DNA of 64,000 nucleotides from an uncultured Pelagibacteraceae bacterium (GCA_902615975.1 CACMRC010000004.1:52908-116907); one strand, 5' to 3'; shown: positions 26,610 to 53,409, counted from the stretch's first letter. Notes: generated by a model from the letters alone, not told the origin. Made by a program: numbers and translations.

Positions 26610-27866
26610 ATGCAAAAATATTCTATATTTAACCTTGTTAAAAACGCTTTTTCAAACCATGAGAATTGGGATTTAGCCTGGAAAGATCCAACACCTAAAG
26701 AGGAATATGATGTTGTAATTATAGGTGGTGGAGGCCATGGATTAGCTACAGCGTATTATCTTGCTAAAGAACATAACATTACAAAAGTTGCAATTATTGA
26801 GAAAGGATGGATTGGTGGAGGAAATGTAGGACGGAACACTACAATTATTAGATCCAATTACATGCATGACGAAAATGGTTTGTTCAGTGAGTTTGGAATG
26901 GATTTATGGAGAAAGATGAGTCAGGATCTTAACTACAATGTAATGTTTTCTCCAAGAGGAATAATTAATCTTGCGCATTCTGATGCACAAATGAATGCAT
27001 ACGCAAGAAGAGGAAATTCTATGAGATTAAATGGAATAGATGCTGTTCTTTTAAATAGAGAGCAAGTTAAAGAAATTATTCCAATGGCTGATTTTTCTGA
27101 AAACGTAAGATTTCCAATTTTTGGTGGTTTGATGCAACCAAGTGCAGGTACAGCAAGACATGATGCTGTTGCATGGGGTTATGCACGTCAGGCAGACTCC
27201 ATGGGGGTAGATATTATTCAGAATTGTGAAGTAATTGGATTTGATGTTTCAGCAGGAAAAATAAATGGCATTAGAACTTCCAGAGGAAATATTAAAGCAA
27301 AAAAAGTTGGTTTATGTGTTGCTGGTAGCACAAATATTTTAGCAGAAAAATTAAATATGACGTTACCAATTGAAACTCATTTACTTCAAGCATGTGTTTC
27401 TGAGCCAGTTAAACCAGTTTTAGATAATGTAGTTACGTTTGGTGCAGGACACTTTTATGTAAGTCAATCTGACAAAGGTGAGATGGTAATGGGCGGCGAT
27501 CTTGATGGTTATAATAGTTATGCTCAAAGAGGAAACTTACCAACATTACAACACGTTTTAACTGAAGGAATAGCGATGATGCCATTTTTAAGTAAATTAA
27601 AAATGCTTAGAACTTGGGGTGGTATTATGGATATGTCAATGGACGGTTCACCAATTATTGATAAAACTCATATTGAAGGTTTGTATTTAAATTGTGGATG
27701 GTGCTATGGAGGATTTAAAGCTACACCTGCATCGGGTTGGACATTTGCTCATACTATTGCGCAAGATAGAGTTCATGAATTAAACGCTGGTTACAGTTTA
27801 AATAGATTTAGTACTGGCCACCTTATTGATGAAAAGGGACTTGGAACAAAAACCTGGATATCATAA
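26610..27866 (+). CDS. soxB: Heterotetrameric sarcosine oxidase / N-methylglutamate dehydrogenase, beta subunit
   Basis: A 418-residue flavoprotein subunit. The Rossmann motif is DVVIIGGGGHGLATAYYL; GGGNVGRNTTIIRSNYMHDENG matches the SoxB region that holds the covalently bound FMN, and CGWCYGGFKATPASGWTFAH closes the FAD domain. In the heterotetramer SoxB oxidises the N-methyl group. First of four genes in the order B-D-A-G with one-base to four-base junctions. The same order and folds are used by N-methylglutamate dehydrogenase (mgdABCD), so with gmaS and MgsABC-like genes in the same window, the substrate may be N-methylglutamate instead of sarcosine. An upstream AT-rich region has a TATAAA close to the ATG, so the leader may be very short. 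Confidence 0.85.
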   Translation: MQKYSIFNLVKNAFSNHENWDLAWKDPTPKEEYDVVIIGGGGHGLATAYYLAKEHNITKVAIIEKGWIGGGNVGRNTTIIRSNYMHDENGLFSEFGMDLWRKMSQDLNYNVMFSPRGIINLAHSDAQMNAYARRGNSMRLNGIDAVLLNREQVKEIIPMADFSENVRFPIFGGLMQPSAGTARHDAVAWGYARQADSMGVDIIQNCEVIGFDVSAGKINGIRTSRGNIKAKKVGLCVAGSTNILAEKLNMTLPIETHLLQACVSEPVKPVLDNVVTFGAGHFYVSQSDKGEMVMGGDLDGYNSYAQRGNLPTLQHVLTEGIAMMPFLSKLKMLRTWGGIMDMSMDGSPIIDKTHIEGLYLNCGWCYGGFKATPASGWTFAHTIAQDRVHELNAGYSLNRFSTGHLIDEKGLGTKTWIS

Positions 27867-28136
27867 ATGCTTTACATAAATTGCCCACACTGTGGAATGA
27901 GATCTCAGAATGAATTTTCATACGGTGGTGATGCAAGCGTTAAAAGACCAGAACTTAATAAAGAAGTTTCTGATCAAGAATGGGATAATTTTGTTTACAA
28001 TAGAAAAAGTTTAAGAGGAAAGCATTTAGAGCTATGGCAACATATTTCTGGATGTAGACAATGGATAAAGGTTGAGAGAGATACTGCAACCCATGAAATT
28101 TTTAGAACTTTTAAAGCTGATGAGGAATTTGCTTAA
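27867..28136 (+). CDS. soxD: Sarcosine oxidase / N-methylglutamate dehydrogenase, delta subunit
   Basis: An 89-residue zinc-binding subunit. YINCPHCGMRSQNEF gives the first Cys-x2-Cys pair, and LWQHISGCRQWIKVERDT gives the His and Cys that complete a zinc site in known SoxD structures. Length is normal (about 90-100). The ATG follows the soxB stop directly and the stop overlaps the soxA start (TAATG). It has a structural role in the heterotetramer. All ligands look intact. Confidence 0.9.
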   Translation: MLYINCPHCGMRSQNEFSYGGDASVKRPELNKEVSDQEWDNFVYNRKSLRGKHLELWQHISGCRQWIKVERDTATHEIFRTFKADEEFA

Positions 28137-31132
28137 TGACCCAAGCTTTTAGAATTGAAAATGGGGGATTAATAAATAGAGATAAAAAGTTATCTTTTAA
28201 ATTTAATGGTAAAACTTACTTTGGCTATGAGGGTGACACATTAGCCTCAGCTTTATTAGCAAATGGAGTTCATTTAGTTGGAAGAAGTTTTAAATATCAC
28301 AGACCCAGAGGTTTTTTTGGAGCAGGTGTAGATGAACCTTATGCAGTTGTTCAACTTTATAGAAATGGCGAAACAGAACCTAATATTAAAGCAACAGAGC
28401 AGGAACTATTTGAAGGTTTAGAAGCAAAAAGTGTTAATTGTTGGCCAAGTGTTAATTTTGATATAGGTGCAATCAATAATTTTTTGAGGATTTTTTTACC
28501 AGCAGGTTTTTATTACAAAACTTTTATGTGGCCAAAAAGTTTTTGGTATCGAATTTATGAGCCTTTCATAAGAAAAGCAGCTGGTTTAGGTGTAGCTTCA
28601 ACTAAACATGATAAAGAAAGGTATGAACATAAATACGAACATTGTGATTTATTAATTGCAGGCTCAGGACCTTCGGGATTAGCTGGTGCATATGCAGCAG
28701 CAAAAAATGGAGCTAAAGTAATTTTGGCTGAAGACAAACCAAGATTTGGTGGATCTTTATTAACTAGTGATGTCAATATTGGCAATCAATCAGGAAAAGA
28801 TTGGGCTGAAGGAATAATTGCAGAACTTAAAACAATGCCAAATGTCGTTGTAAAAAATAGATCTCAAATTTTTGGATACTATGATCATAACATGCTTGTG
28901 ATGTCGGAAAAAGTTAGTGATCATTTACCATCAACTAAAAAATATCACCCTAACAAAAGGTTATGGTACATTCGAGCAAAAGAAGTTTTGATTTCCTCAG
29001 GATCAATTGAAAGACCAATAGTTTTTGGAAATAATGATACACCAGGGGTAATGCTTTCCTCAGCTGCTAAAGAATATTTAAAAGTATATGGTGTTTTAGT
29101 TGGAAGAAAACCACTGGTGTTTACAAATAATGATAGTGGATACGAAACAGCAATTGAATTTAAAAAACATGGAGTAGATCCAGTTGTTTTAGACTCAAGA
29201 AAAAATCCTGATTCAGAAATAATTGATGAGGCAAATAATTTAGGAATTAATATTAAAAATTCATATGTTGTTGTTGCAGCACAAGGATACAAAAAAGTAA
29301 AATCAGCAGATATTGCAAGTATTTCTGAAGACAAAAAACAACTTGGTAAAATAGAAAATATTCAATGTGATTGTATTTGCGTTTCAGGTTTTTGGACACC
29401 AACTATTCATTTAGCCTCACAATCAGGAAATAAAACAAAATTTAAAGAGGAAATTGATGCATTTGTCCCAGGTCAGTCAAAACAAAATGAAATCACTTTA
29501 GGTGCAGCTAATGGAGAATTTTCACTAGAGGAAACTTTAAAAACATCATTTACAGCAGGAAGTGAATTATCAAAAAAAATTACTGAAAATGATAATAAGA
29601 TAGCTATTCCAAATGTTGTTGAAAAGAAATCTTCTCAGCATGATAAGTTTTGGTGTGTTCCATTGCCAAAAGGTAAAAGTTATAAAAGATTTTTAGATTT
29701 TCAAAACGATGTAGCGGTATCTGATGTGGAAATAGCTTTAAGAGAAGGGTATCGATCAATTGAACACGTTAAAAGATATACCACTCTAGGAATGGCAACA
29801 GATCAAGGAAAAACAAGTAATTTAAATGGATTACAATTAGTATCCGAAATTGAAAACAAAGTTGTTCCTGCAGTAGGCCATACGACTTTTAGGCCTCCAT
29901 ATACTCCTGTTTCTATTGGAGCAATAGTAGGAAGAGAGGTTGGAAAACATTCAAAACCAACAAGAAAATCTCCAATGCATTCATGGCATGAAAAAAATAA
30001 TGCAGTCTTTGTTGATGCAGGTGTTTGGTTAAGACCCAGGTATTATAGAAGAGGAAATGAAAATTTATTTGAGGGATCAAAAAGAGAAGCAAAAAATGTA
30101 AGAACAAATGTAGGTGTTTGCGATGTAACTACATTAGGTAAAATAGATATTAAAGGACCAGATGCAGCGGAGTTATTAAATAGAGTCTATACAAATGCAT
30201 GGTTGAAGCTACCAGTTGGTAAAGCTAGATATGGTGTAATGTTAAGAGAAGATGGAATTGTAATGGATGACGGAACAACCACAAGAATTTCTGAAAATCA
30301 TTATCATATGACTACGACAACAGCTCAGGCAGCAAACGTTCTTTCGCATTTAGAATATTATTTGCAACTTGTTTGGCCTGAATTAAATGTGAATGTAGTT
30401 TCAACTACAGAACAGTGGGCTGGTGCAGCTATAGCTGGACCTAAATCTCGAGATTTATTACAAAAATTATTTCCAAACTCTGATGTATCAAATGAAGGCT
30501 TACCTTTTATGGGCTATATGGAGGGAGATTTATTTGGTGTAAAAGCAAGAATATATAGAATTTCGTTTTCAGGCGAGCTTGCTTATGAGGTAAATGTTGA
30601 GTCTGATTATGGAAATTTTATGTGGGAAAAAATAATTGAAGTTGGTGAAGAATTTAATATTCAACCATATGGAACTGAAGCATTATCAACTCTTAGAATT
30701 GAAATGGGACATGTTGCAGGATCAGAACTTGATGGTAGAACAATTCCATTCGACAACGCTTTAGAAGGTCTTGTTAGTAAAAAGAAAGATTTTATTGGAA
30801 AAAGATCATTACAAAGATCTGCATTTATAGCTGAAGATAGACAAAGAATAGTGGGCGTAGTTCCATTAGATAAACAAACAAGTATACCAGAAGGCTCTCA
30901 CTTAGTTAAAGATGATAAAGCACCGTTACCAAATCCAAAATTAGGTCATATCTCTGCATCTTGTTGGAGTGTTGAATATGATAATCCTTTTTCTTTAGCA
31001 ATTTTGAAAGATGGAAAAAATATGATCGGTCAAAAGCTTTTTGCGATGTCTCCACTTAAAAACAAAGTAATACCAGTTGAGATAGTTTCATCACATTATG
31101 TAGATCCGAAAGGTGAAAGAGTTAGATCATGA
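28136..31132 (+). CDS. soxA: Sarcosine oxidase / N-methylglutamate dehydrogenase, alpha subunit
   Basis: A 998-residue SoxA. The N-terminal ferredoxin-like part ([36 protein letters not shown]) precedes an NAD-binding domain with [21 protein letters not shown]. From about residue 600 to the end comes a GcvT-like THF-binding module ([57 protein letters not shown]). In the complex this module accepts the methyl carbon as methylene-THF. It overlaps soxG by four bases (ATGA). Length is normal. As for soxB, a MgdC role is equally consistent. Confidence 0.9.
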
Positions 31133-31716
31133 CATTAATTTCAGCTTTATCAAATGTTCATGCAAAAGGTCAATTCGGAGATTATGAAGGTAAAAATGAA
31201 AATGATATACTTAAAATATCTGAAATCAAAAATTTATTAATTGTTCAAATAGTTCAGTACAAAAATTCTTCAGTTTCATTTAAGGGTATTGATATTGATG
31301 GTTTAAAATTAAAAAATGAACCTTTGGCCGTAGTATTTAATGAAAATACGAGGATTATGTGGAATGGACCAAAAAACTGGCTTTTAGTTTCAATAAAAAA
31401 AAATTTAATAAAAAATGTAGAAGATAAATTTAAAGATACAGATTTTGCTGTAACAGATTTATCTCATTCTAGAGCTATTATAGAAATCGAAGGAAATAAT
31501 ACGATAGAAGTTTTGAAAAAAGGATGTCCTTTTAATTTTAATAAATTAGATAAAAACAATTCAATTAACTCAACTTATAATGGAATAGCTTTTACTGTAG
31601 ATAGGTTGAGTGATAATCCAAATAAAGTAAGGATATTTACGCTAAGAAGTTTTGGCGAGTCTTTATATCATTCTATCACAGATGCATCTCTAGAGTTTGG
31701 TTTTGAAACTATATAA
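31129..31716 (+). CDS. soxG: Sarcosine oxidase / N-methylglutamate dehydrogenase, gamma subunit
   Basis: A 195-residue SoxG-type protein, itself a shortened GcvT-fold subunit. [42 protein letters not shown] and the C-terminal [22 protein letters not shown] match the family. It completes the four-gene complex. Sequence conservation is low in this subunit generally, and here it is Lys/Asn-rich. It ends ten bases before the convergent EamA pseudogene with no obvious terminator. Confidence 0.82.
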
Positions 31717-36225: not shown

Positions 36226-36717
36226 TTATTTTGGAGATTTCTTTACAGATTTAGTTTGTGATGTTCTAAAATTTTTAAGTTTTTTTCGAACATTTGAATT
36301 ATTATTAGCAATTATTGCTGCTGCTAATAAAGCAGCATTAATAGCGCCGTCCTCTCCTATAGCAAGCGTTCCTACAGGAATTCCTTTAGGCATTTGTGCA
36401 ATTGATAACAAACTATCCAAACCTTTAAGTTTTTTACTTTCAACAGGAACACCAAGTACTGGCACATGTGTAAGTGCTGATACCATACCTGGAAGATGAG
36501 CAGATCCTCCGGCACCCGCAATAATTACTCCTATATTATTTTGCTCAACTTTTGTAGCATATTCATACATTCTTTGTGGTGTTCTGTGAGCAGATATAAT
36601 TTTTGTTTCAAATGAAACTCCAATTTTTTTTAGGGTTTTTTCGGCTTGTTTCATTACTTTATAGTCAGATTGACTTCCCATTATGATTGAAACTTTTAAT
36701 TTACTATTTTTTTTCAT
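36226..36717 (-). CDS. purE: N5-carboxyaminoimidazole ribonucleotide mutase
   Basis: A 163-residue class I PurE. SIIMGSQSDYKVMKQAEKTL, SAHRTPQRMYEYA and IIAGAGGSAHLPGMVSALT are the substrate and catalytic blocks, including the Ser-Ala-His-Arg active-site segment; VPVLGVPVESKKLKGLDSLLSIAQMPKGIPVGT is typical. It converts N5-CAIR to CAIR. It has an extra Lys-rich C-terminal tail. It is divergent from the dipeptidase cassette with about 94 bases between. Confidence 0.95.
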   Translation of the reverse strand: MKKNSKLKVSIIMGSQSDYKVMKQAEKTLKKIGVSFETKIISAHRTPQRMYEYATKVEQNNIGVIIAGAGGSAHLPGMVSALTHVPVLGVPVESKKLKGLDSLLSIAQMPKGIPVGTLAIGEDGAINAALLAAAIIANNNSNVRKKLKNFRTSQTKSVKKSPK

Positions 36718-36811: not shown

Positions 36812-37777
36812 ATGAATTATAAAATCGATAATCTTCAATATTGCAATTGGTCTAGGAAAATCTTTGAGATAAATAGATCTGCCGGATTAGATGCTGTCCA
36901 TGTTACCATTGTCTACCATGAAGATTTTGATGAATTACAACTTGAAATTAAAAAATGGGAAAAATTATTTCATGAAAATTCTGATTTAATTTTTCTTGGT
37001 AAGAATTTCCAAGATATTGATAAAGCTAACAAAGAAAACAAAACCGCAATATTTTTTGGTTTTCAAAACTGTTCACCAATTGAAGATGACATAAATCTTG
37101 TTGAAAAGGTTCATCAATTAGGATGCAGATTTATGCAACTTACTTATAATAACCAGTCTTTGCTAGCAACAGGTTGTTATGAAAAAGTAGATAGCGGAGT
37201 TACAAATTTTGGACGTGAGGTTATAAGAGAAATGAATAAAGTTGGCCTCGTGGTAGACATGTCACATTCTGCAGAAAAAAGTACTCTAGATGCAATTGAA
37301 TTCAGTGAAAAACCAATAGCAATTACTCATGCTAATCCTTCTTTTTGGCATCCAGCTAAAAGAAATAAATCCTCAGATTTATTAAAAATTTTGAGTGATA
37401 GTGGTGGTATGTTGGGTTTATCATTATACCCTCATCACTTAAAAGATAACACAAATTGTACTCTAGATAGTTTTTGTGAAATGGTGGCAAAAACAGCCGA
37501 AATAATGGATGTAAAAAAAATAGGAATAGGATCAGATCTTTGTTTAGATCATCCAGATAGTGTTGTTGAATGGATGAGAAATGGTTCTTGGTCTAAAAGT
37601 AAAAATTATGGTGAAGGTTCGAAAAATAAACCAGGTTTTCCTAAACAACCTGACTGGTTTCTTGATGCAAGAGGGTTCTCAAATATTGAAAAAGGTCTAA
37701 AAAAAGCAGGTTTTTCAGATACCGAGACACATGGAATACTTGGAAATAACTGGTACAATTTTTATAAAACTATTTAA
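36812..37777 (+). CDS. Atypical membrane dipeptidase (peptidase M19) family protein
   Basis: About 321 residues from the ATG at 36812 (the track's TTG at 36791 adds seven unlikely residues). The fold is M19: VVDMSHSAEKSTLDAI and PIAITHANPSFWHPAKRNKSSD supply the two later His and the Arg, and IGIGSDLCLDHP the Asp. However, the N-terminal metal pair expected as D-G-H-x-D reads IDNLQYCNW, and the bridging Glu position reads FGFQNCSP, so three canonical metal ligands seem absent. Either the metal site is reorganised or the reaction differs from dipeptide hydrolysis. It starts a cassette with a 553-aa unknown, DUF3726 and a CxxC protein, with two-base gaps. Confidence 0.75.
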   Translation: MNYKIDNLQYCNWSRKIFEINRSAGLDAVHVTIVYHEDFDELQLEIKKWEKLFHENSDLIFLGKNFQDIDKANKENKTAIFFGFQNCSPIEDDINLVEKVHQLGCRFMQLTYNNQSLLATGCYEKVDSGVTNFGREVIREMNKVGLVVDMSHSAEKSTLDAIEFSEKPIAITHANPSFWHPAKRNKSSDLLKILSDSGGMLGLSLYPHHLKDNTNCTLDSFCEMVAKTAEIMDVKKIGIGSDLCLDHPDSVVEWMRNGSWSKSKNYGEGSKNKPGFPKQPDWFLDARGFSNIEKGLKKAGFSDTETHGILGNNWYNFYKTI

Positions 37778-37779
37778 TT

Positions 37780-39441
37780 ATGAAAGTTGAATTAAGAGAC
37801 CCGAATAAGATAATGAAATTATCAAGGCTAGGATCTTTTCATCAATCAAAATTATCTTTTTTAAGAAGTTTTCTTAATGAATTTAAAGAGTGGGAGTATA
37901 AAAGAGATTTATTTAATTTAAATGAAAATGGTTTTGGAGAAGCTGTTTACTCATTTAAAAAAAATAAAAGAGTTTATTCTTTAATTTGTTTTGCAAATGA
38001 AATCAAAGATGAAGAAAGATCAGACAGAGTTATTGCAACAAAATGGGATGCAGCTTTTACATTACACGATGGAGTTCCTACAAAAAAAGATATTGAAAGA
38101 TTAAAAAATGAAGTTCCAAAACAAGAAGTTGGCAGACTTTCTTATAAAGAATTAACTTTATCGAGAGCAAACAAATCAGTAAGAATTTATAATCATGTAG
38201 TTGAAAGTTTGAGCAAAGGTCAGCAGCCAGATTTAAACTTATTATCAAAAGTAGGCTATTTATATAGGACTACAGCAGTATATGGCTCAGGCAAATTTGG
38301 TCTTGCAGATCGATTTAGAATTAAAAATCGTGAAGAAATTAATGGTCCATTCAGATTAGAAATGATGCTGGTTTATTTGGTAAGACAATTTACTTTTGAT
38401 CAAGTTAATCATGTTGCTTATCATAAAAATCCAAAAATAGCTGTTAAGCTAGATGATAATATTTGTAAAAACTTGGGAATAGGTAATTCCACAGGTTTGG
38501 GTATGGCTCCATTTATAGTCAATCACCCAACTCTATTAAATAATTGGATTTTAAGTAGAGAAAAAGCACTAAAGAAAATTAGAGAAATCAAAGATGTAGA
38601 AAGTCAAGATAGCGATTTGTTTATAGATTGTGTAAAAAAATCATTAAAAAATATTACAAGCTGGAATACTGATAGCAAATATCAGCAAAAAAAAATTTCT
38701 TCATTATTAAAGGATGTTGAAAAGTTCTTAAATTTTATAGATAAAGATTTTAATTTTAAGAGCGAATATCCTTTTGACAAAATCTATCAATGGTTAGAGG
38801 ATAATACTTGCGAGGAATGTATTGAATACATAGTGTCAATAATGATGGAGCCTTATAACGATATTATAAATCCTTTGGTAAAAGAAATGAGTTCAGACGA
38901 AGAAAAATATTTTAATATTCCAACTTATAGAAAAGTTGATGAATTGAGGAATATCATTGAAGCAAAGTATCCCAATATTCTAGATATTAATTTTGAAGAA
39001 AAAGAAAATAATAAAAACTTTTGGTTTATTTCAAAAAATAAAGAAGAACCTAGATTGGCAGATCGTTTTGAAGAACATGGATCAGAATTAGAACAACCTT
39101 TAGCAATAGCAAGAGATATAAAAAAACTTTATGACAAATTATTAGTCTCAAAAAATAGTTTAACTATCGCTGAGTTTTTAACATCAAATTCTGAGTTAAG
39201 ACATGTTGTAAGAAGAGCGTTTATTGTAGAAAAATTTCCTTATTCAGAAATACAAGATAATACAATTGGTAAAGATTTAATGCCAATTGATATGCTAAGA
39301 TTAAAATTGTCTTTTTTTGGTGCATTAAAATTTGATCCACGATCTGACAAATGGTTAAGAATTTGCATGTTCCAAGGTGCTCCACTTCCAAATGAGTTAA
39401 AAAGTTATGACGAGCAGTGGGTATATAAAACCAATATTTAA
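37780..39441 (+). CDS. Unknown 553-aa protein of the DUF3726 cassette
   Basis: A 553-residue soluble protein with no signal or membrane span. I do not recognise its family. It has an N-terminal block (RLGSFHQSKLSFLRSFLNEF), a WDAAFTLHDGVPTKKDIERL segment, a probable core around residues 160-250 (YLYRTTAVYGSGKFGLADRF; RLEMMLVYLVRQFTFDQVNHVAY; LGIGNSTGLGMAPF) and a C-terminal region rich in charged residues with FFGALKFDPRSDKWLRICMFQG near the end. The GNSTGLGMAPF stretch looks like a conserved loop. It lies two bases after the M19-like gene and two before DUF3726, so it is almost certainly functionally linked to them. Confidence 0.75.
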   Translation: MKVELRDPNKIMKLSRLGSFHQSKLSFLRSFLNEFKEWEYKRDLFNLNENGFGEAVYSFKKNKRVYSLICFANEIKDEERSDRVIATKWDAAFTLHDGVPTKKDIERLKNEVPKQEVGRLSYKELTLSRANKSVRIYNHVVESLSKGQQPDLNLLSKVGYLYRTTAVYGSGKFGLADRFRIKNREEINGPFRLEMMLVYLVRQFTFDQVNHVAYHKNPKIAVKLDDNICKNLGIGNSTGLGMAPFIVNHPTLLNNWILSREKALKKIREIKDVESQDSDLFIDCVKKSLKNITSWNTDSKYQQKKISSLLKDVEKFLNFIDKDFNFKSEYPFDKIYQWLEDNTCEECIEYIVSIMMEPYNDIINPLVKEMSSDEEKYFNIPTYRKVDELRNIIEAKYPNILDINFEEKENNKNFWFISKNKEEPRLADRFEEHGSELEQPLAIARDIKKLYDKLLVSKNSLTIAEFLTSNSELRHVVRRAFIVEKFPYSEIQDNTIGKDLMPIDMLRLKLSFFGALKFDPRSDKWLRICMFQGAPLPNELKSYDEQWVYKTNI

Positions 39442-39443
39442 TA

Positions 39444-40055
39444 ATGAAATCACTGAGTGAAATTGAAACTACTGTTAAAAGAGCTTCAAAGGCGGCAGGA
39501 TATTCTTGGGGGGTTTCTGAGGAAACAGGAAAAAGTATTAGGTTATTAGAGCTATTTAGTTTACCGGGTATTAAGCACCTTAATGAATATTTTAATGAAA
39601 AAAACAAAAGTAAATTTGAAAATTTAAATTTAATTAATGAAAATAACTCTTCATCAAACAATCCTTACTGTCCAATTACTTTAGGTGTTAGTTTTTTAGA
39701 TCAAATAAATGTTTTAGAAAATTTAAAAAAAATTGAATTCAAAAATGTTGCTTATCCAATAATTTTTATATCCTTTATAAGTCGTTCATCAGAAATTATT
39801 GGAAAAAAAATTTATTTAAAAATGGATGAGAAAAAAATTTTACTAAATTTAAATGTAAATATTAGTTCAAATTTTATTGAACAAGAATTTCCAAAATTAG
39901 CGAATACAATTGAGGTAAATCTACTTGAAAATGAAGACAACTTTACAGACTATGAATGGAATAATTTATACAAGTTATCTGAAGAAACTTTTGTCGAAGA
40001 AAGTGACAGTTTAAAAGAAGGTGCGGCAGGTGCTGGTTTGACTGATAATGACTGA
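39444..40055 (+). CDS. DUF3726 family protein
   Basis: A 203-residue protein whose N-terminus (SLSEIETTVKRASKAAGYSWGVSEETGKSIRLLE) matches my memory of DUF3726, a family of unknown function found in marine alphaproteobacteria. The remainder is poorly conserved, Lys/Asn-rich, with an acidic C-terminal tail ending EGAAGAGLTDND. The Gly/Ala-rich end is also typical. It is co-transcribed with the M19-like and 553-aa genes and overlaps the next small ORF by eight bases. No catalytic motif seen. Confidence 0.7.
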   Translation: MKSLSEIETTVKRASKAAGYSWGVSEETGKSIRLLELFSLPGIKHLNEYFNEKNKSKFENLNLINENNSSSNNPYCPITLGVSFLDQINVLENLKKIEFKNVAYPIIFISFISRSSEIIGKKIYLKMDEKKILLNLNVNISSNFIEQEFPKLANTIEVNLLENEDNFTDYEWNNLYKLSEETFVEESDSLKEGAAGAGLTDND

Positions 40056-40215
40056 TAAAACTGATGAAAAATATCTTAATACAGATACTGAAGAATTAAA
40101 CAATATTTGTGATGAATGCAGAGAAGAAGACGAGAGTGTTACTCAAAATTTAATTCTTACTGGGTTTAAATTATGTAAATCTTGTAGAGTATCTAAAACT
40201 ATATTTCCACTTTAA
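40048..40215 (+). CDS. Small two-CxxC protein (55 aa), not in ORF track
   Basis: Reading past the DUF3726 stop reveals an ORF from ATG at 40048 to TAA at 40215, overlapping DUF3726 by eight bases. It encodes 55 residues with an acidic N-terminus and two Cys pairs, NICDECREED and KLCKSCRVS, spaced about 19 residues apart. Four Cys in this layout suggest a small zinc ribbon or a metal/iron-sulfur carrier. Its last four bases overlap the convergent YIP1-like gene. The overlap and the paired Cys argue that it is real and the fourth member of the cassette. Confidence 0.65.
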   Translation: MTDKTDEKYLNTDTEELNNICDECREEDESVTQNLILTGFKLCKSCRVSKTIFPL

Positions 40216-43048: not shown

Positions 43049-43936
43049 TTACTTTTTTAACTGACCTCTGTGCTTTTGAATTCTTTGTCCGTACTGTTGA
43101 GTTACTCTATCAAAGATAATTGCCAGAGCTACGATTGCTAAACCATTCATCATTCCAAGAGCTAAATATTGGTTGGAAATAGCCTGTAAAATAGGGACTC
43201 CCAAGCCTTTTACACCTATCATTGAAGCAATCACTACCATTGCTAAAGCCATCATAATCGTTTGGTTAATCCCAGCAAAAATAGTTGGTAGAGAAAGTGG
43301 GATTTGAACAGATCTTAATTTTTGCATCGGTGTTGCCCCAAAAGCTTCGCTAGCTTCTAAAGTTTCTTTATCAACTTCTCTAATCCCTAGATTTGTTAAT
43401 CTTACAATAGGGGGGAGAGCATAAATACATACAGCAAGCAAACCAGGCACTTTACCAATACCAAGAAGCATAATTATAGGTATAAGATACACAAAACTTG
43501 GAATGGTTTGCATCATATCTAAAACAGGTAAAATTGCTTTTTCTGCTCTAGCGGATTTTGACATTACAATTCCAATTGGTATTCCAACAACAATACAAAC
43601 TAATGTAGAAACAGATATTATTGCAACGGTCGCCATACAATTTTTCCACATTCCAAAATAGCCAATAACTATAAAACAAGCTACTGTGCCAATAACAAGC
43701 TTAATACTTCTTGATCCAATCCAAGCTAATAAAGCAAATACACCAATTACTAAAGGCCATGGACTGTTTACTAATAATTTTTCTAACCAAATTAAAAAAT
43801 GTAACAGTGGATCAAAAAAACCCTCAATCCCATCTCCATAAGCTCTTGAAAATTCTTTGAAACTAGAGTCAATTCCTTTTTTAAGCTCTCTAAGAGCTGT
43901 TCTATCCATTACAGGAATTTTATTAAAGAAGTCCAT
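43049..43936 (-). CDS. proW: Betaine-type ABC transporter permease
   Basis: A 295-residue ProW-like permease with about six spans (WPLVIGVFALLAWIGSRSIKLVIGTVACFIVIGYFG etc.). The ATPase-contact EAA loop is EASEAFGATPMQKLRSVQIPLSLPTI, and GIPIGIVMSKSARAEKAILPVLDMMQTIPSFVYLIPIIM is typical. It lies downstream of the binding-protein gene with a stable hairpin in between. There is no ATP-binding protein gene in this operon: the next genes are MetF-like and DmdA-like. The ATPase may come from the system at 17-20 kb or elsewhere. Confidence 0.88.
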   Translation of the reverse strand: MDFFNKIPVMDRTALRELKKGIDSSFKEFSRAYGDGIEGFFDPLLHFLIWLEKLLVNSPWPLVIGVFALLAWIGSRSIKLVIGTVACFIVIGYFGMWKNCMATVAIISVSTLVCIVVGIPIGIVMSKSARAEKAILPVLDMMQTIPSFVYLIPIIMLLGIGKVPGLLAVCIYALPPIVRLTNLGIREVDKETLEASEAFGATPMQKLRSVQIPLSLPTIFAGINQTIMMALAMVVIASMIGVKGLGVPILQAISNQYLALGMMNGLAIVALAIIFDRVTQQYGQRIQKHRGQLKK

Positions 43937-43948
43937 AATTTTTATTAA

Positions 43949-43974
43949 ATCAAACCCGCCGAAGCGGGTTTGAT
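43949..43974 (-). promoter_or_regulatory. C(UUCG)G hairpin between binding protein and permease
   Basis: On the minus strand ATCAAACCCGC-TTCG-GCGGGTTTGAT is a perfect 11-base stem closed by a UUCG tetraloop with a C-G closing pair, an exceptionally stable RNA hairpin. Only a short A/T tail follows, and the permease ATG is 13 bases further on. It probably protects the 3' end of the binding-protein mRNA and/or attenuates permease expression. Confidence 0.8.
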
Positions 43975-43985
43975 AATATTTTTAA

Positions 43986-44996
43986 TTAAAGTGCTTTTTT
44001 GATTTTTTTTGCAGCATCACTTGAAACCCATTTACTCCAAACGCTCTCTTGAGTTTTAAGGAATTCAATTGCAGCATCAGCACCTTCTGCTTGGTTTTCA
44101 CCCATCCAAACTAACATACCGTTCATAACTGGACCTGGGTATGTTCTCTTCTTAAAGTATTCCATACCAGCACTTCCAGCTGTATTTTTGAAATTGTCAG
44201 TTACGATTGTGTAAACTTCAGATTTTGTCCATGAAGTTGCTTTAGGGTCTCCACATTCTTGTTCTGGTAAAACTATACATTTATCCCAGTTATCTTTTCC
44301 ACCCCAAGCTCCCATATCTACAGCTCTCATATCATATTTACCAATGATAGCTGTTGGTGACCAATAGTAACCAAACCAGTTTTCACCTCGCTCAGCAGCT
44401 TTAGCAATTGAACCATCTAATCCTGCAGCAGAACCTGTTTCAACAATAGCCCAACCTTTTGCTTCCATGCCAAAAGCTTTGTAAAGATTTCTATTACTTA
44501 GCTCACAGTTCCAACCTGGAGGACAAATATGAAATCCACCTTTTGATGGATCTTCTGGATGAGGAAACAGATCTGGTCTTGCTAAAATTGCTTCAGCAGT
44601 TGTTAGCTCTGGATGTTTTTTAAGTGTGTGAGGTAATACCCACCATCCTTCACCCAAACCAGTAATTGGCGCTTTATTAAGTGAGTGCATTTTTCCTTCG
44701 TCAACAGCTTTATTCAAAGCAATGATAGCAGCGTTAGCCCAAAATTCTGGAGCAACATCTGGCTCACCTTTTTCTTGCATAGATGTAAACGTAGGCATTG
44801 TAGCACCAGGTACTAATTCTACTGAACATCCGTAACCTTCTTCTAATATGATCTTATCAACTTCAGCCATAAAGTTTGCTGAAGCCCAGTTCATATTAGC
44901 GATCGTTATATTTCCACAAGCTGCATTTGCAACACTTCCAAAAGAAGTAAGACTAAACACAACAGCTAGTGAAAGAAGTATTCTTTTAATCTTCAT
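43986..44996 (-). CDS. proX: Betaine/choline-type ABC substrate-binding protein
   Basis: A binding protein of 336 residues from the ATG at 44996, preceded by GGGAGA; the track's start 24 bases upstream adds a non-signal extension. The signal peptide is MKIKRILLSLAVVFSLTSFGSVANA. The mature part is OpuAC-like (ITIANMNWASANFMAEVDKIIL; PDVAPEFWANAAI; GYYWSPTAIIG) with two Cys-containing loops (CPPGWNCELS; CIVLPEQECGD) that could form disulfides, and conserved Trp residues for a cation cage. It is distinct from the tmoX-like protein and longer. The ligand may be glycine betaine, choline or DMSP. It is divergent from the Rieske/bhmT operon. Confidence 0.82.
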   Translation of the reverse strand: MKIKRILLSLAVVFSLTSFGSVANAACGNITIANMNWASANFMAEVDKIILEEGYGCSVELVPGATMPTFTSMQEKGEPDVAPEFWANAAIIALNKAVDEGKMHSLNKAPITGLGEGWWVLPHTLKKHPELTTAEAILARPDLFPHPEDPSKGGFHICPPGWNCELSNRNLYKAFGMEAKGWAIVETGSAAGLDGSIAKAAERGENWFGYYWSPTAIIGKYDMRAVDMGAWGGKDNWDKCIVLPEQECGDPKATSWTKSEVYTIVTDNFKNTAGSAGMEYFKKRTYPGPVMNGMLVWMGENQAEGADAAIEFLKTQESVWSKWVSSDAAKKIKKAL

Positions 44997-45065
44997 TATA
45001 TCTCCCAACATTTGATTCATTTAAAAGTTAAATTGAACATATCGAGGCTAATAATGCAAATTTAA

Positions 45066-45082
45066 TTCAACTATTGGTTGAA
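45066..45082. promoter_or_regulatory. Inverted repeat TTCAAC-N5-GTTGAA in divergent intergenic region
   Basis: A perfect six-base inverted repeat with five-base spacer lies 70 bases upstream of the binding-protein start and 186 bases upstream of the Rieske gene. The geometry suits a dimeric regulator such as a MarR/TetR/LysR-type protein. Not tested against other copies; chance is possible. Confidence 0.45.
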
Positions 45083-45102
45083 GTAAAATTGTCTTTAACT
45101 GA

Positions 45103-45120
45103 CCTAAATTTTTGTTTAGG
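45103..45120. promoter_or_regulatory. Second inverted repeat CCTAAA-N6-TTTAGG
   Basis: A perfect six-base inverted repeat with six-base T-rich spacer follows the first repeat by 20 bases. It could be an operator or a weak hairpin in a leader transcript. The region from 45000 to 45267 otherwise holds only AT-rich sequence. Confidence 0.35.
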
Positions 45121-45238
45121 GTTTAAGAATGACTTTTTCTGCAAATTTTTTTTTCAAAGAATTTGTTTATATTTTAAATTGCAAAACTGTTTTTCAACAA
45201 ATCATAATTAGAGAAAGATAATTTTAAGCCTCGATTAA

Positions 45239-45264
45239 TTTTTTAATTAATTAAAAAAAGGAGG
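45239..45264 (+). promoter_or_regulatory. 20-base AT palindrome abutting a strong ribosome site
   Basis: TTTTTTAATTAATTAAAAAA is a perfect 20-base palindrome at 45239-45258, immediately followed by AGGAGG (45259-45264) four bases before the Rieske-gene ATG. As RNA it could form a weak hairpin next to the ribosome site. The AGGAGG itself is among the strongest in the window. Confidence 0.5.
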
Positions 45265-45267
45265 TTT

Positions 45268-46455
45268 ATGAATTTAAATAAAAAATTATCAGACATCTTA
45301 GATCCAAATAAAATTGAAGTTGTTAAAAATCCTATAGAGAAAGCTCATGGATTACCTAATGAATGTTATTTGAATAATGATTATTTAGAGTTTGAGAAAG
45401 AAAAAATATTTAAAAATAATTGGACGATGATTGGGGTTGCGAGTTCTGTACCAAATCCAGGCAATGCAAAACCTTTTAATCTTTTAGGAATACCAATACT
45501 AATAGTTAGAAACAAAGAGAACGAAGTAAAAGTTTTTCATAACGTTTGTAGTCATAGAGGTTTCAAACTAGTTGATCAGGAATGTAAATTAAAAAATGTA
45601 ATAAGATGCCCTTATCATTCCTGGTCCTATGATTTTAATGGAAAATTAACTGTTACTCCACATATAGGAGGACTAGGAAAACATGAGGTTGAAGGGTTTG
45701 ATAAAAACAATAGTAACTTAAAAGAAATTAAATCAAATATTTGGATGGATTTAATTTTTATCAATATAAATTCTAATGCAAAACCATTTGAAGATTTTAT
45801 TAAACCTCTAGAGGACAGATGGTCTAAGTTTATTTCTAAAAAAGATCAAAAATTAATTAGACACTCAACTGATAACGGATATTTTAATATGACAGTAAAT
45901 AGTAATTGGAAATTTGCAATTGAGAATTATTGTGAAAGTTATCATTTGCCGTGGATACATCCAGAACTAAATAAAGTTTCAAATATTTCAGATCACTATC
46001 ATATTGAAGATGAGAATTTAAATTTTTCAGGACAAGGAAGTAATAAATATTCACAACAGTTTGATGGAAACATTAAATTTAAATGCTTTCCTAACTGGCC
46101 TACTGAACTTTCTGAAAAATCTGAATATGTATCATTATATCCAAACGTAATGTTAGGAATACATATTGATCATTTCTATGCATTTTGGTTAGAGCCAATT
46201 TCTAACAATCAAACTAAAGAACATTTTGAACTATATTATATTGGAGATGAAAGTGCTTCTAGTGATGAGTTTAAAGATATAAGAGCAAAAAATTTTGCAT
46301 TTTGGCAAGAAGTTATGAATGAAGATGTAACTGCAATAGAAGGAATGCAAAACGGCCGAAATTCACCAGCTTACAATGGTGGGAATTTTTCACCTGTAAT
46401 GGATACTCCTACTTTGATGTTTCATAAGTGGGTTGCAACTAACTTAACAAAATGA
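45268..46455 (+). CDS. Rieske oxygenase alpha subunit (betaine/choline monooxygenase type)
   Basis: A 395-residue Rieske non-haem iron oxygenase. The 2Fe-2S site is Cys94-x-His96 and Cys114-x2-His117 (NVCSHRGFK; IRCPYHSWSY). The mononuclear iron site has Glu223, His226 and His231 in FAIENYCESYHLPWIHPEL. Similar enzymes hydroxylate choline, glycine betaine, stachydrine or carnitine, and position directly upstream of bhmT and DMGDH argues for a quaternary amine, perhaps glycine betaine demethylation in parallel with BHMT. No ferredoxin reductase gene is nearby, so electrons must come from elsewhere. First gene of the long plus-strand run. Confidence 0.82.
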   Translation: MNLNKKLSDILDPNKIEVVKNPIEKAHGLPNECYLNNDYLEFEKEKIFKNNWTMIGVASSVPNPGNAKPFNLLGIPILIVRNKENEVKVFHNVCSHRGFKLVDQECKLKNVIRCPYHSWSYDFNGKLTVTPHIGGLGKHEVEGFDKNNSNLKEIKSNIWMDLIFININSNAKPFEDFIKPLEDRWSKFISKKDQKLIRHSTDNGYFNMTVNSNWKFAIENYCESYHLPWIHPELNKVSNISDHYHIEDENLNFSGQGSNKYSQQFDGNIKFKCFPNWPTELSEKSEYVSLYPNVMLGIHIDHFYAFWLEPISNNQTKEHFELYYIGDESASSDEFKDIRAKNFAFWQEVMNEDVTAIEGMQNGRNSPAYNGGNFSPVMDTPTLMFHKWVATNLTK

Positions 46456-52557: not shown

Positions 52558-53409
52558 ATGAACGATAGACTCAAGACTATTGTAGATTTAAAAAAATATC
52601 CAATATACGATTTAGATTCACCAATAATTAAAAATCTTGTAAAAAAATGTAAAGAAGAACTGGATCAAAATAGTTGTTCAACAATTCCAAATTTTATTTT
52701 GCCTAAATCACTTAAGGTAATGAATTCTGAGTTGGAAAAACAATTAGATGAAGTTTATATGTCTAAAGAAAGTATAAATGCTTACTTGTATGCAAAGGAC
52801 GATCCCTCATTACCAAAAGATCATCCAAAAAGAACTTTTATGAATAGATACAATGGATATTTAAATTCAGATTGTTTTCCAAAAGATTCCGAAATGAAAT
52901 ATCTATACGAAACAGAGGAACTTTTAAATTTTGTATCTGCTTGTTTAGGTGTTTCTCCTATTTACAGATGGGCAGATCCTTTAGCCTGTCATGCTTATAA
53001 TGTTATGAAACCAGACGGAGTACTCCCATGGCATTTTGATAGTTGTGAATTTACACTAAGTTTAATGATACAAAAACCTGAGAAGGGTGGAGTATTTGAG
53101 TATTGTCCAAACATTAGAGAACCTGGAAATGAAAATTTTAAAGAAGTTCAAAAAGTTATAGCCGGAGATAGAACTAAAGTAAGACAATTGAAGTTAGAGC
53201 CAGGAGATTTACAAATATTTAAAGGAAGATTTACTTTACATAGAGTAACAAAGGTTGAGGGCCAAAAATCAAGATATATGTGTATTCCAGCTTATGTTTT
53301 AGATCCATGGAGAGTAAACACCCCAGAACATTCCAAAGCTATTTATGGTAAAGTTTTGCCAATTCATATAGAAAGAAATCAGGCCAGATCCGATGGATTA
53401 ACTGATTAA
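52558..53409 (+). CDS. Fe(II)/2-oxoglutarate-dependent oxygenase (HalD/BesD-like family)
   Basis: A 283-residue non-haem oxygenase. The facial triad is His159-x-Asp161 (LPWHFDSCEFTLSLMI) and His228 (FTLHRVTKV), with Arg239 (KSRYMCIPAY) for 2-oxoglutarate. GGVFEYCPNIREP and LKLEPGDLQIFKGR are typical of the HalD/BesD group, which includes amino acid halogenases, but the carboxylate ligand is retained here, so hydroxylation is more likely than halogenation. The substrate could be an amino acid or a betaine-type compound. Six bases downstream of the nucleotidylyltransferase and adjacent to a crotonase gene. Confidence 0.8.
   Translation: MNDRLKTIVDLKKYPIYDLDSPIIKNLVKKCKEELDQNSCSTIPNFILPKSLKVMNSELEKQLDEVYMSKESINAYLYAKDDPSLPKDHPKRTFMNRYNGYLNSDCFPKDSEMKYLYETEELLNFVSACLGVSPIYRWADPLACHAYNVMKPDGVLPWHFDSCEFTLSLMIQKPEKGGVFEYCPNIREPGNENFKEVQKVIAGDRTKVRQLKLEPGDLQIFKGRFTLHRVTKVEGQKSRYMCIPAYVLDPWRVNTPEHSKAIYGKVLPIHIERNQARSDGLTD

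Follow-up and report, generated by a model that had tools for sequence, protein, structure and literature searches.

Three adjacent genes of an uncultured SAR11 bacterium, encoding an M19-family (amidohydrolase) protein, a 553-residue protein (P553) and a DUF3726 protein, probably constitute the conserved core of an operon for the catabolism of a phytoplankton-derived methylated betaine, most likely homarine (N-methylpicolinate). We infer the substrate, the order of the steps and every catalytic role from gene context. The trio lies in a stretch of 64,000 nucleotides (hereafter the window) from an assembly that totals 1.19 Mb, and the closest relatives of the window are Pelagibacteraceae single-cell genomes, with P553 identities of up to 99%. 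An earlier note, made from the sequence alone, had grouped these genes with a fourth ORF, for a 55-residue CxxC peptide, as an undescribed four-gene cassette (Table 1).

Table 1. Features of the window around the trio
Feature	Coordinates	Strand	Basis or remark
purE	36226..36717	-	left border of the trio's insertion point
M19-family (amidohydrolase) protein, Q85/Y112 subfamily, 321 aa	36812..37777	+	PF01244, 2i5g, ligand positions
P553, 553 aa	37780..39441	+	no Pfam, NCBIfam or PDB relative; obligate DUF3726 partner
DUF3726 protein, 203 aa	39444..40055	+	PF12525; putative diverged Ldh_2-like domain and conserved C-terminal GAGAGLTDND-type tail
CxxC peptide, 55 aa, two CxxC pairs	40048..40215	+	real gene, overlaps DUF3726, outside the unit
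GcvT/DmdA-like protein, 452 aa	40912..42270	-	right-hand neighbour block with MTHFR-like gene
soxB, soxD, soxA, soxG, heterotetrameric sarcosine oxidase type	26610..31716	+	TIGR01373, TIGR01372 above cut-off

Gene organization at the purE site

The tight packing reported for the four ORFs is accurate, with gaps of 2 bp (37777/37780 and 39441/39444) and an overlap of 8 bp (40048 versus 40055), and all four are coding and kept in about 80 Pelagibacter species. The usual order in 80 Pelagibacter loci is purK-purE, M19-P553-DUF3726-CxxC and Yip-like-GcvT-MTHFR, M19 being upstream of P553-DUF3726 in 80/80 SAR11 loci. Three genomes (G029, G036 and G016) have purE followed on one contig by CxxC-Yip-GcvT-MTHFR with the trio absent, six loci (L053, L059, L084, L085, L145 and L188) contain the trio without the CxxC gene, and G030 carries the trio on one contig and the CxxC-Yip-GcvT block on another. 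From the empty sites and the trio loci without CxxC it therefore follows that the trio is gained or lost together and that the CxxC gene belongs to the adjacent block. The conserved unit is thus three genes, M19-P553-DUF3726, which come or go as one at the purE site, while the CxxC gene is separable and part of the neighbouring Yip-like/GcvT/MTHFR block. A unit of four genes was rejected in view of the genomes in which purE leads directly into the CxxC block.

Distribution and operon context

The pairing of P553 with DUF3726 is obligate: of 288 alphaproteobacterial genomes, 41 contain P553 and 34 contain DUF3726, the two share 34 genomes (about 5 being expected by chance), and in 34/34 the DUF3726 gene follows P553 on its strand, starting no more than about 85 bp further downstream. 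Of 38 loci sampled, 32 have M19 upstream of the pair and in the same orientation. Co-occurrence of DUF3726 with all three of its neighbours, on which the earlier note had staked its cassette, accordingly holds for P553 (34/34) and M19 (32/38 loci) and fails for the CxxC gene. P553 was also detected in 30 of 349 Pseudomonadota genomes, nine outside Alphaproteobacteria; a search of viral contigs for more diverse P553 proteins found none. Where the gene after P553 is negative in Pfam, it usually encodes 170-255 aa and bears the DUF3726 tail signature, other classes included.

Annotated plasmids carry the full operon, in which LysR accompanies aldehyde dehydrogenase-M19-P553-DUF3726-Ldh-family oxidoreductase-betaine transporter (BCCT or ProU); these operons come from Phaeobacter, Aliiroseovarius, Rhodobacteraceae M382, Shinella, Aminobacter and Roseateles, not all genes being present in all, and they adjoin sarcosine oxidase, PurU and FolD, or DMSP demethylase genes. 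Rhodobacterales are among the relatives that have the whole set linked. In the sister SAR11 family an aldehyde dehydrogenase gene lies near the trio, and one genus of that family unites a sarcosine oxidase set, the trio, Ldh, aldehyde dehydrogenase and an ABC transporter at a single locus; in L133 a sarcosine oxidase set adjoins M19 in divergent orientation. Gammaproteobacteria-like relatives have aldehyde dehydrogenase-M19-P553 with LysR, BCCT and a DUF3726-tail protein. Ldh is missing from five P553-bearing sister-family genomes that are at least 90% complete (G037, G038, G040, G046 and G048), and the five genes are therefore not a fixed set. A more distant trio in Sinorhizobium has an IclR regulator gene beside it, together with a polyamine-type ABC transporter, so that the core may not be restricted to a single substrate. 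A BCCT-type betaine transporter gene stands between M19 and P553 at nine loci (L147, L153, L195, L199, L200, L201, L204, L205 and L207).

The surroundings of the trio in the window form a methylated-osmolyte island of genes for GcvT/DmdA-like, MTHFR-like, ProW, ProX, Rieske, BHMT-like and DddP-like proteins and a dehydrogenase-GcvT fusion, with soxBDAG upstream. The 452-aa GcvT-like protein, which in Pelagibacter usually occurs together with an MTHFR-like protein of 242 aa, reaches only 224 bits with the model for DMSP demethylase, whose cut-off is 410, and could be another methyltransferase. The ProW/ProX and Rieske genes (43049-46455) exist at the same place in two very different versions among close strains (L033, L035, L036, L038 and L041), with identities of about 99% versus 62-77% for ProW/ProX and 96-98% versus 60-62% for Rieske, which suggests that these betaine uptake and oxidation genes have been replaced among close strains. 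The island also encodes a HalD/WelO5-like protein of the Fe/2-oxoglutarate halogenase family (52558-53406).

Proposed pathway

The recurrence of a transporter, an aldehyde dehydrogenase, a hydrolase, an Ldh-family reductase and an N-demethylase around the trio fits the degradation of a methylated cyclic betaine. In the scheme that we propose, P553 and DUF3726 would act as one hetero-complex that opens the ring at the outset; the semialdehyde so formed would be oxidised by the aldehyde dehydrogenase; the M19-like protein would hydrolyse an N-acyl (formyl) or enamine bond with release of one carbon; the imine would then be handled by the Ldh-family reductase or by spontaneous hydrolysis; and an enzyme of the sarcosine-oxidase/methylglutamate-dehydrogenase type would strip the N-methyl group to leave glutamate. 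Homarine would in this way lose ring carbon 6 and reach N-methylglutamate by ring opening, aldehyde oxidation, deformylation and imine reduction.

The trigonelline pathway, tgnABCDE, begins with ring opening by a flavin monooxygenase/reductase pair and continues with an aldehyde dehydrogenase and a hydrolase. The present scheme resembles it in that an N-methylpyridinium carboxylate ring would be opened before aldehyde dehydrogenase and hydrolase act, whereas P553 and DUF3726 match no family of the monooxygenase and reductase type. A closer parallel is an operon reportedly described in 2026, homABCDER, which is said to comprise five enzymes and a regulator, to yield N-methylglutamate and to occur in Rhodobacterales, SAR11 and SAR116. 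It shares with the full-length operons described here five enzyme genes and a regulator (aldehyde dehydrogenase, M19, P553, DUF3726, Ldh and LysR), a distribution that covers Rhodobacterales and SAR11, and a link to N-methylglutamate and sarcosine oxidase-type demethylation; unlike it, the window and its genus link only three genes, without regulator, aldehyde dehydrogenase or Ldh. By analogy in gene number and distribution, the operon of the trio is likely to be the hom operon, and the label "undescribed" is doubtful because the genomic contexts and distribution fit that operon. Participation of Mgd in homarine catabolism has been documented (PMC13390433), and that article cites a paper on a conserved homarine pathway (Ferrer-Gonzalez et al., Nat Microbiol, 2026).

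The trio may instead break down another methylated betaine or amine (proline betaine, a carnitine-type or a sulfonium compound) by the same logic of opening, hydrolysis and N-demethylation, an alternative that we consider rather unlikely. It would accommodate the variation of the transporters near the operon across taxa (BCCT, ProU, polyamine-type ABC), the presence of DMSP demethylase or NADH:flavin oxidoreductase genes near it in different taxa, and the two P553 copies that some genomes carry; however, the set of aldehyde dehydrogenase, hydrolase and Ldh-family enzyme suits a pyridinium carboxylate, from which one ring carbon is lost on the way to N-methylglutamate, and the distribution agrees with the one reported for homarine catabolism.

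For homarine catabolism in Pelagibacter, the aldehyde dehydrogenase and the reductase would need to be encoded outside the trio locus. The Pelagibacter trio has no adjacent aldehyde dehydrogenase or Ldh gene, the Ldh-like proteins of the window's genome are 31-34% identical to the operon type, and no clear Pelagibacter orthologue of the aldehyde dehydrogenase or Ldh of the operon type was recognised. The soxBDAG set of the window may provide the final, N-demethylating part of the pathway; the genome has two sets of the sarcosine oxidase type (26610-31716 in the window and G000:C3:37-42 kb), and N-methylglutamate can be assigned as substrate to neither. The soxA of the second set (L194:5213-10304, G000 contig C3) is 48% identical to that of the window, and neither gmaS nor mgs was found beside that set.

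The M19-like protein

The earlier note's assignments of M19 and DUF3726 hold, and the M19-like protein matches PF01244 (Peptidase_M19) with E 7e-68 and 229.5 bits (cut-off 26) and aligns over nearly its full length with PDB 2i5g (E 2e-56). The ligand positions were assigned from established knowledge of renal dipeptidase. At these positions L8 and Y10 replace the His and Asp of the HxD pair, Q85 the bridging Glu and Y112 the LTHN His, while H152, H173, R184 and D242 are retained, much as the earlier note had described. The HxD pair, the bridging Glu and the LTHN His are missing in 47/47 homologues sampled; all of these keep H173, R184 and D242, and 46/47 keep H152. The altered site, being fixed in 47 proteins and common to 2i5g, therefore points to a subfamily trait rather than to decay, and the label "degenerate" is not supported. 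The site is probably a type of its own with a single metal (H152, H173, D242), making the protein a candidate mononuclear-metal hydrolase.

Like the window protein, 2i5g from Pseudomonas aeruginosa has Gln for the bridging Glu and no HxD, although it belongs to a separate branch. Renal dipeptidase and the bacterial M19 dipeptidases (1itq, 3id7) have the family, the second His pair, the Arg and the Asp in common with the window protein, but the dinuclear site known from them cannot form in it, for want of HxD and bridging Glu, the residues that mark a two-zinc dipeptidase. A role of the protein in cleaving peptides or dipeptides, to which the name of the family points, with the neighbours as accessories, is consistent with a Peptidase_M19 score well over the cut-off; it is nonetheless improbable, given the absence of three elements of the dinuclear site from every homologue sampled and given linked genes that deal with betaines rather than peptides. 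A possible lead, PA5396/PA5397 (the M19 gene and its neighbour in the Pseudomonas dimethylglycine locus), was not found in the literature text searched.

The P553-DUF3726 pair

The DUF3726 gene matches PF12525 with E 2e-22 and 79.2 bits (cut-off 22.1), and no mention of DUF3726 was found in the literature searched. The AlphaFold model of the protein (mean pLDDT 88.5) has type-2 malate/lactate dehydrogenases as its top PDB matches in Foldseek, the best E value being only 0.05 (probability 0.96, TM 0.41-0.47). In hhalign, DUF3726 aligns with the Ldh family at P 2.4e-5 over 121 collinear columns from the N-terminus, against P 0.12 or worse for all 12 control families, and one DUF3726 member matches PF02615 at E 0.025. 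The Ldh_2 enzymes (type-2 malate/lactate dehydrogenases, ureidoglycolate dehydrogenase and piperideine-2-carboxylate reductase) differ from DUF3726, which is shorter (about 200 aa), carries a GAGAG-DND tail and lacks the SHG motif, the catalytic histidine falling at an alignment gap and not being conserved. From these alignments and the model, DUF3726 may be regarded, with moderate confidence, as a shortened, diverged Ldh_2 relative without the catalytic SHG motif. Its C-terminal signature, with variation allowed, is V-[PE]-x-[ST]-x2-SR-x2-GAGAG-x-[TS]-DND; the 73-residue Pfam model omits the GAGAG-x-TDND tail, which finds members that Pfam misses.

P553 matched no Pfam or NCBIfam family and has no sequence relative in the PDB. 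Its AlphaFold model (mean pLDDT 73, pTM 0.79) gave no fold match in the PDB, a negative that is soft because the model is weakest in the most conserved loops and was built on an alignment of SAR11 sequences only. Conservation among 63 diverse members extends to many Arg, to two His (H211, H249) and to acidic residues (D90, E261, E349, E357, E423) but to no Cys. P553 is thus probably neither an Fe-S nor a Cys-zinc protein; an enzyme that needs a partner or cofactor is plausible. It is a tentative possibility that P553-DUF3726 represents a new two-subunit enzyme class, of unsolved fold, that opens the N-methylpyridinium ring, in which DUF3726 would be a former dehydrogenase, now non-catalytic, whose acidic GAGAG-DND tail docks in the Arg-rich conserved pocket of P553.

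The CxxC peptide

The 55-aa ORF, which has no Pfam or NCBIfam match, was searched for in 61 genomes, after which the loci were inspected. It is kept in 74 of the 78 SAR11 loci with a complete DUF3726 gene, and its conservation is to that extent confirmed. Where the trio is missing, the peptide remains with the Yip-like/GcvT/MTHFR block as a highly conserved Pelagibacter gene. The earlier proposal, in which the peptide would carry metal to a degenerate M19 protein as part of metal-site assembly or of a new chemistry at the metal, could draw on the loss of three classical ligands and on the conserved position of the peptide beside the trio in Pelagibacter, but is very improbable, as the CxxC gene did not turn up in the 24 sister-family genomes searched, it and the trio each occur without the other, the M19 site is invariant and undecayed, and P553 offers no conserved Cys.

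Concluding remarks

SAR11 bacteria are among the most abundant in the ocean, and homarine and other betaines are large labile pools of nitrogen and carbon. The trio includes P553, a protein without known relative or fold, paired with DUF3726, both families being of unknown chemistry; should the pair indeed act by opening a pyridinium ring, it would represent a novel type of ring-opening enzyme. Being either present or cleanly missing at one site, the trio would distinguish SAR11 strains able to use such a compound from those that are not.
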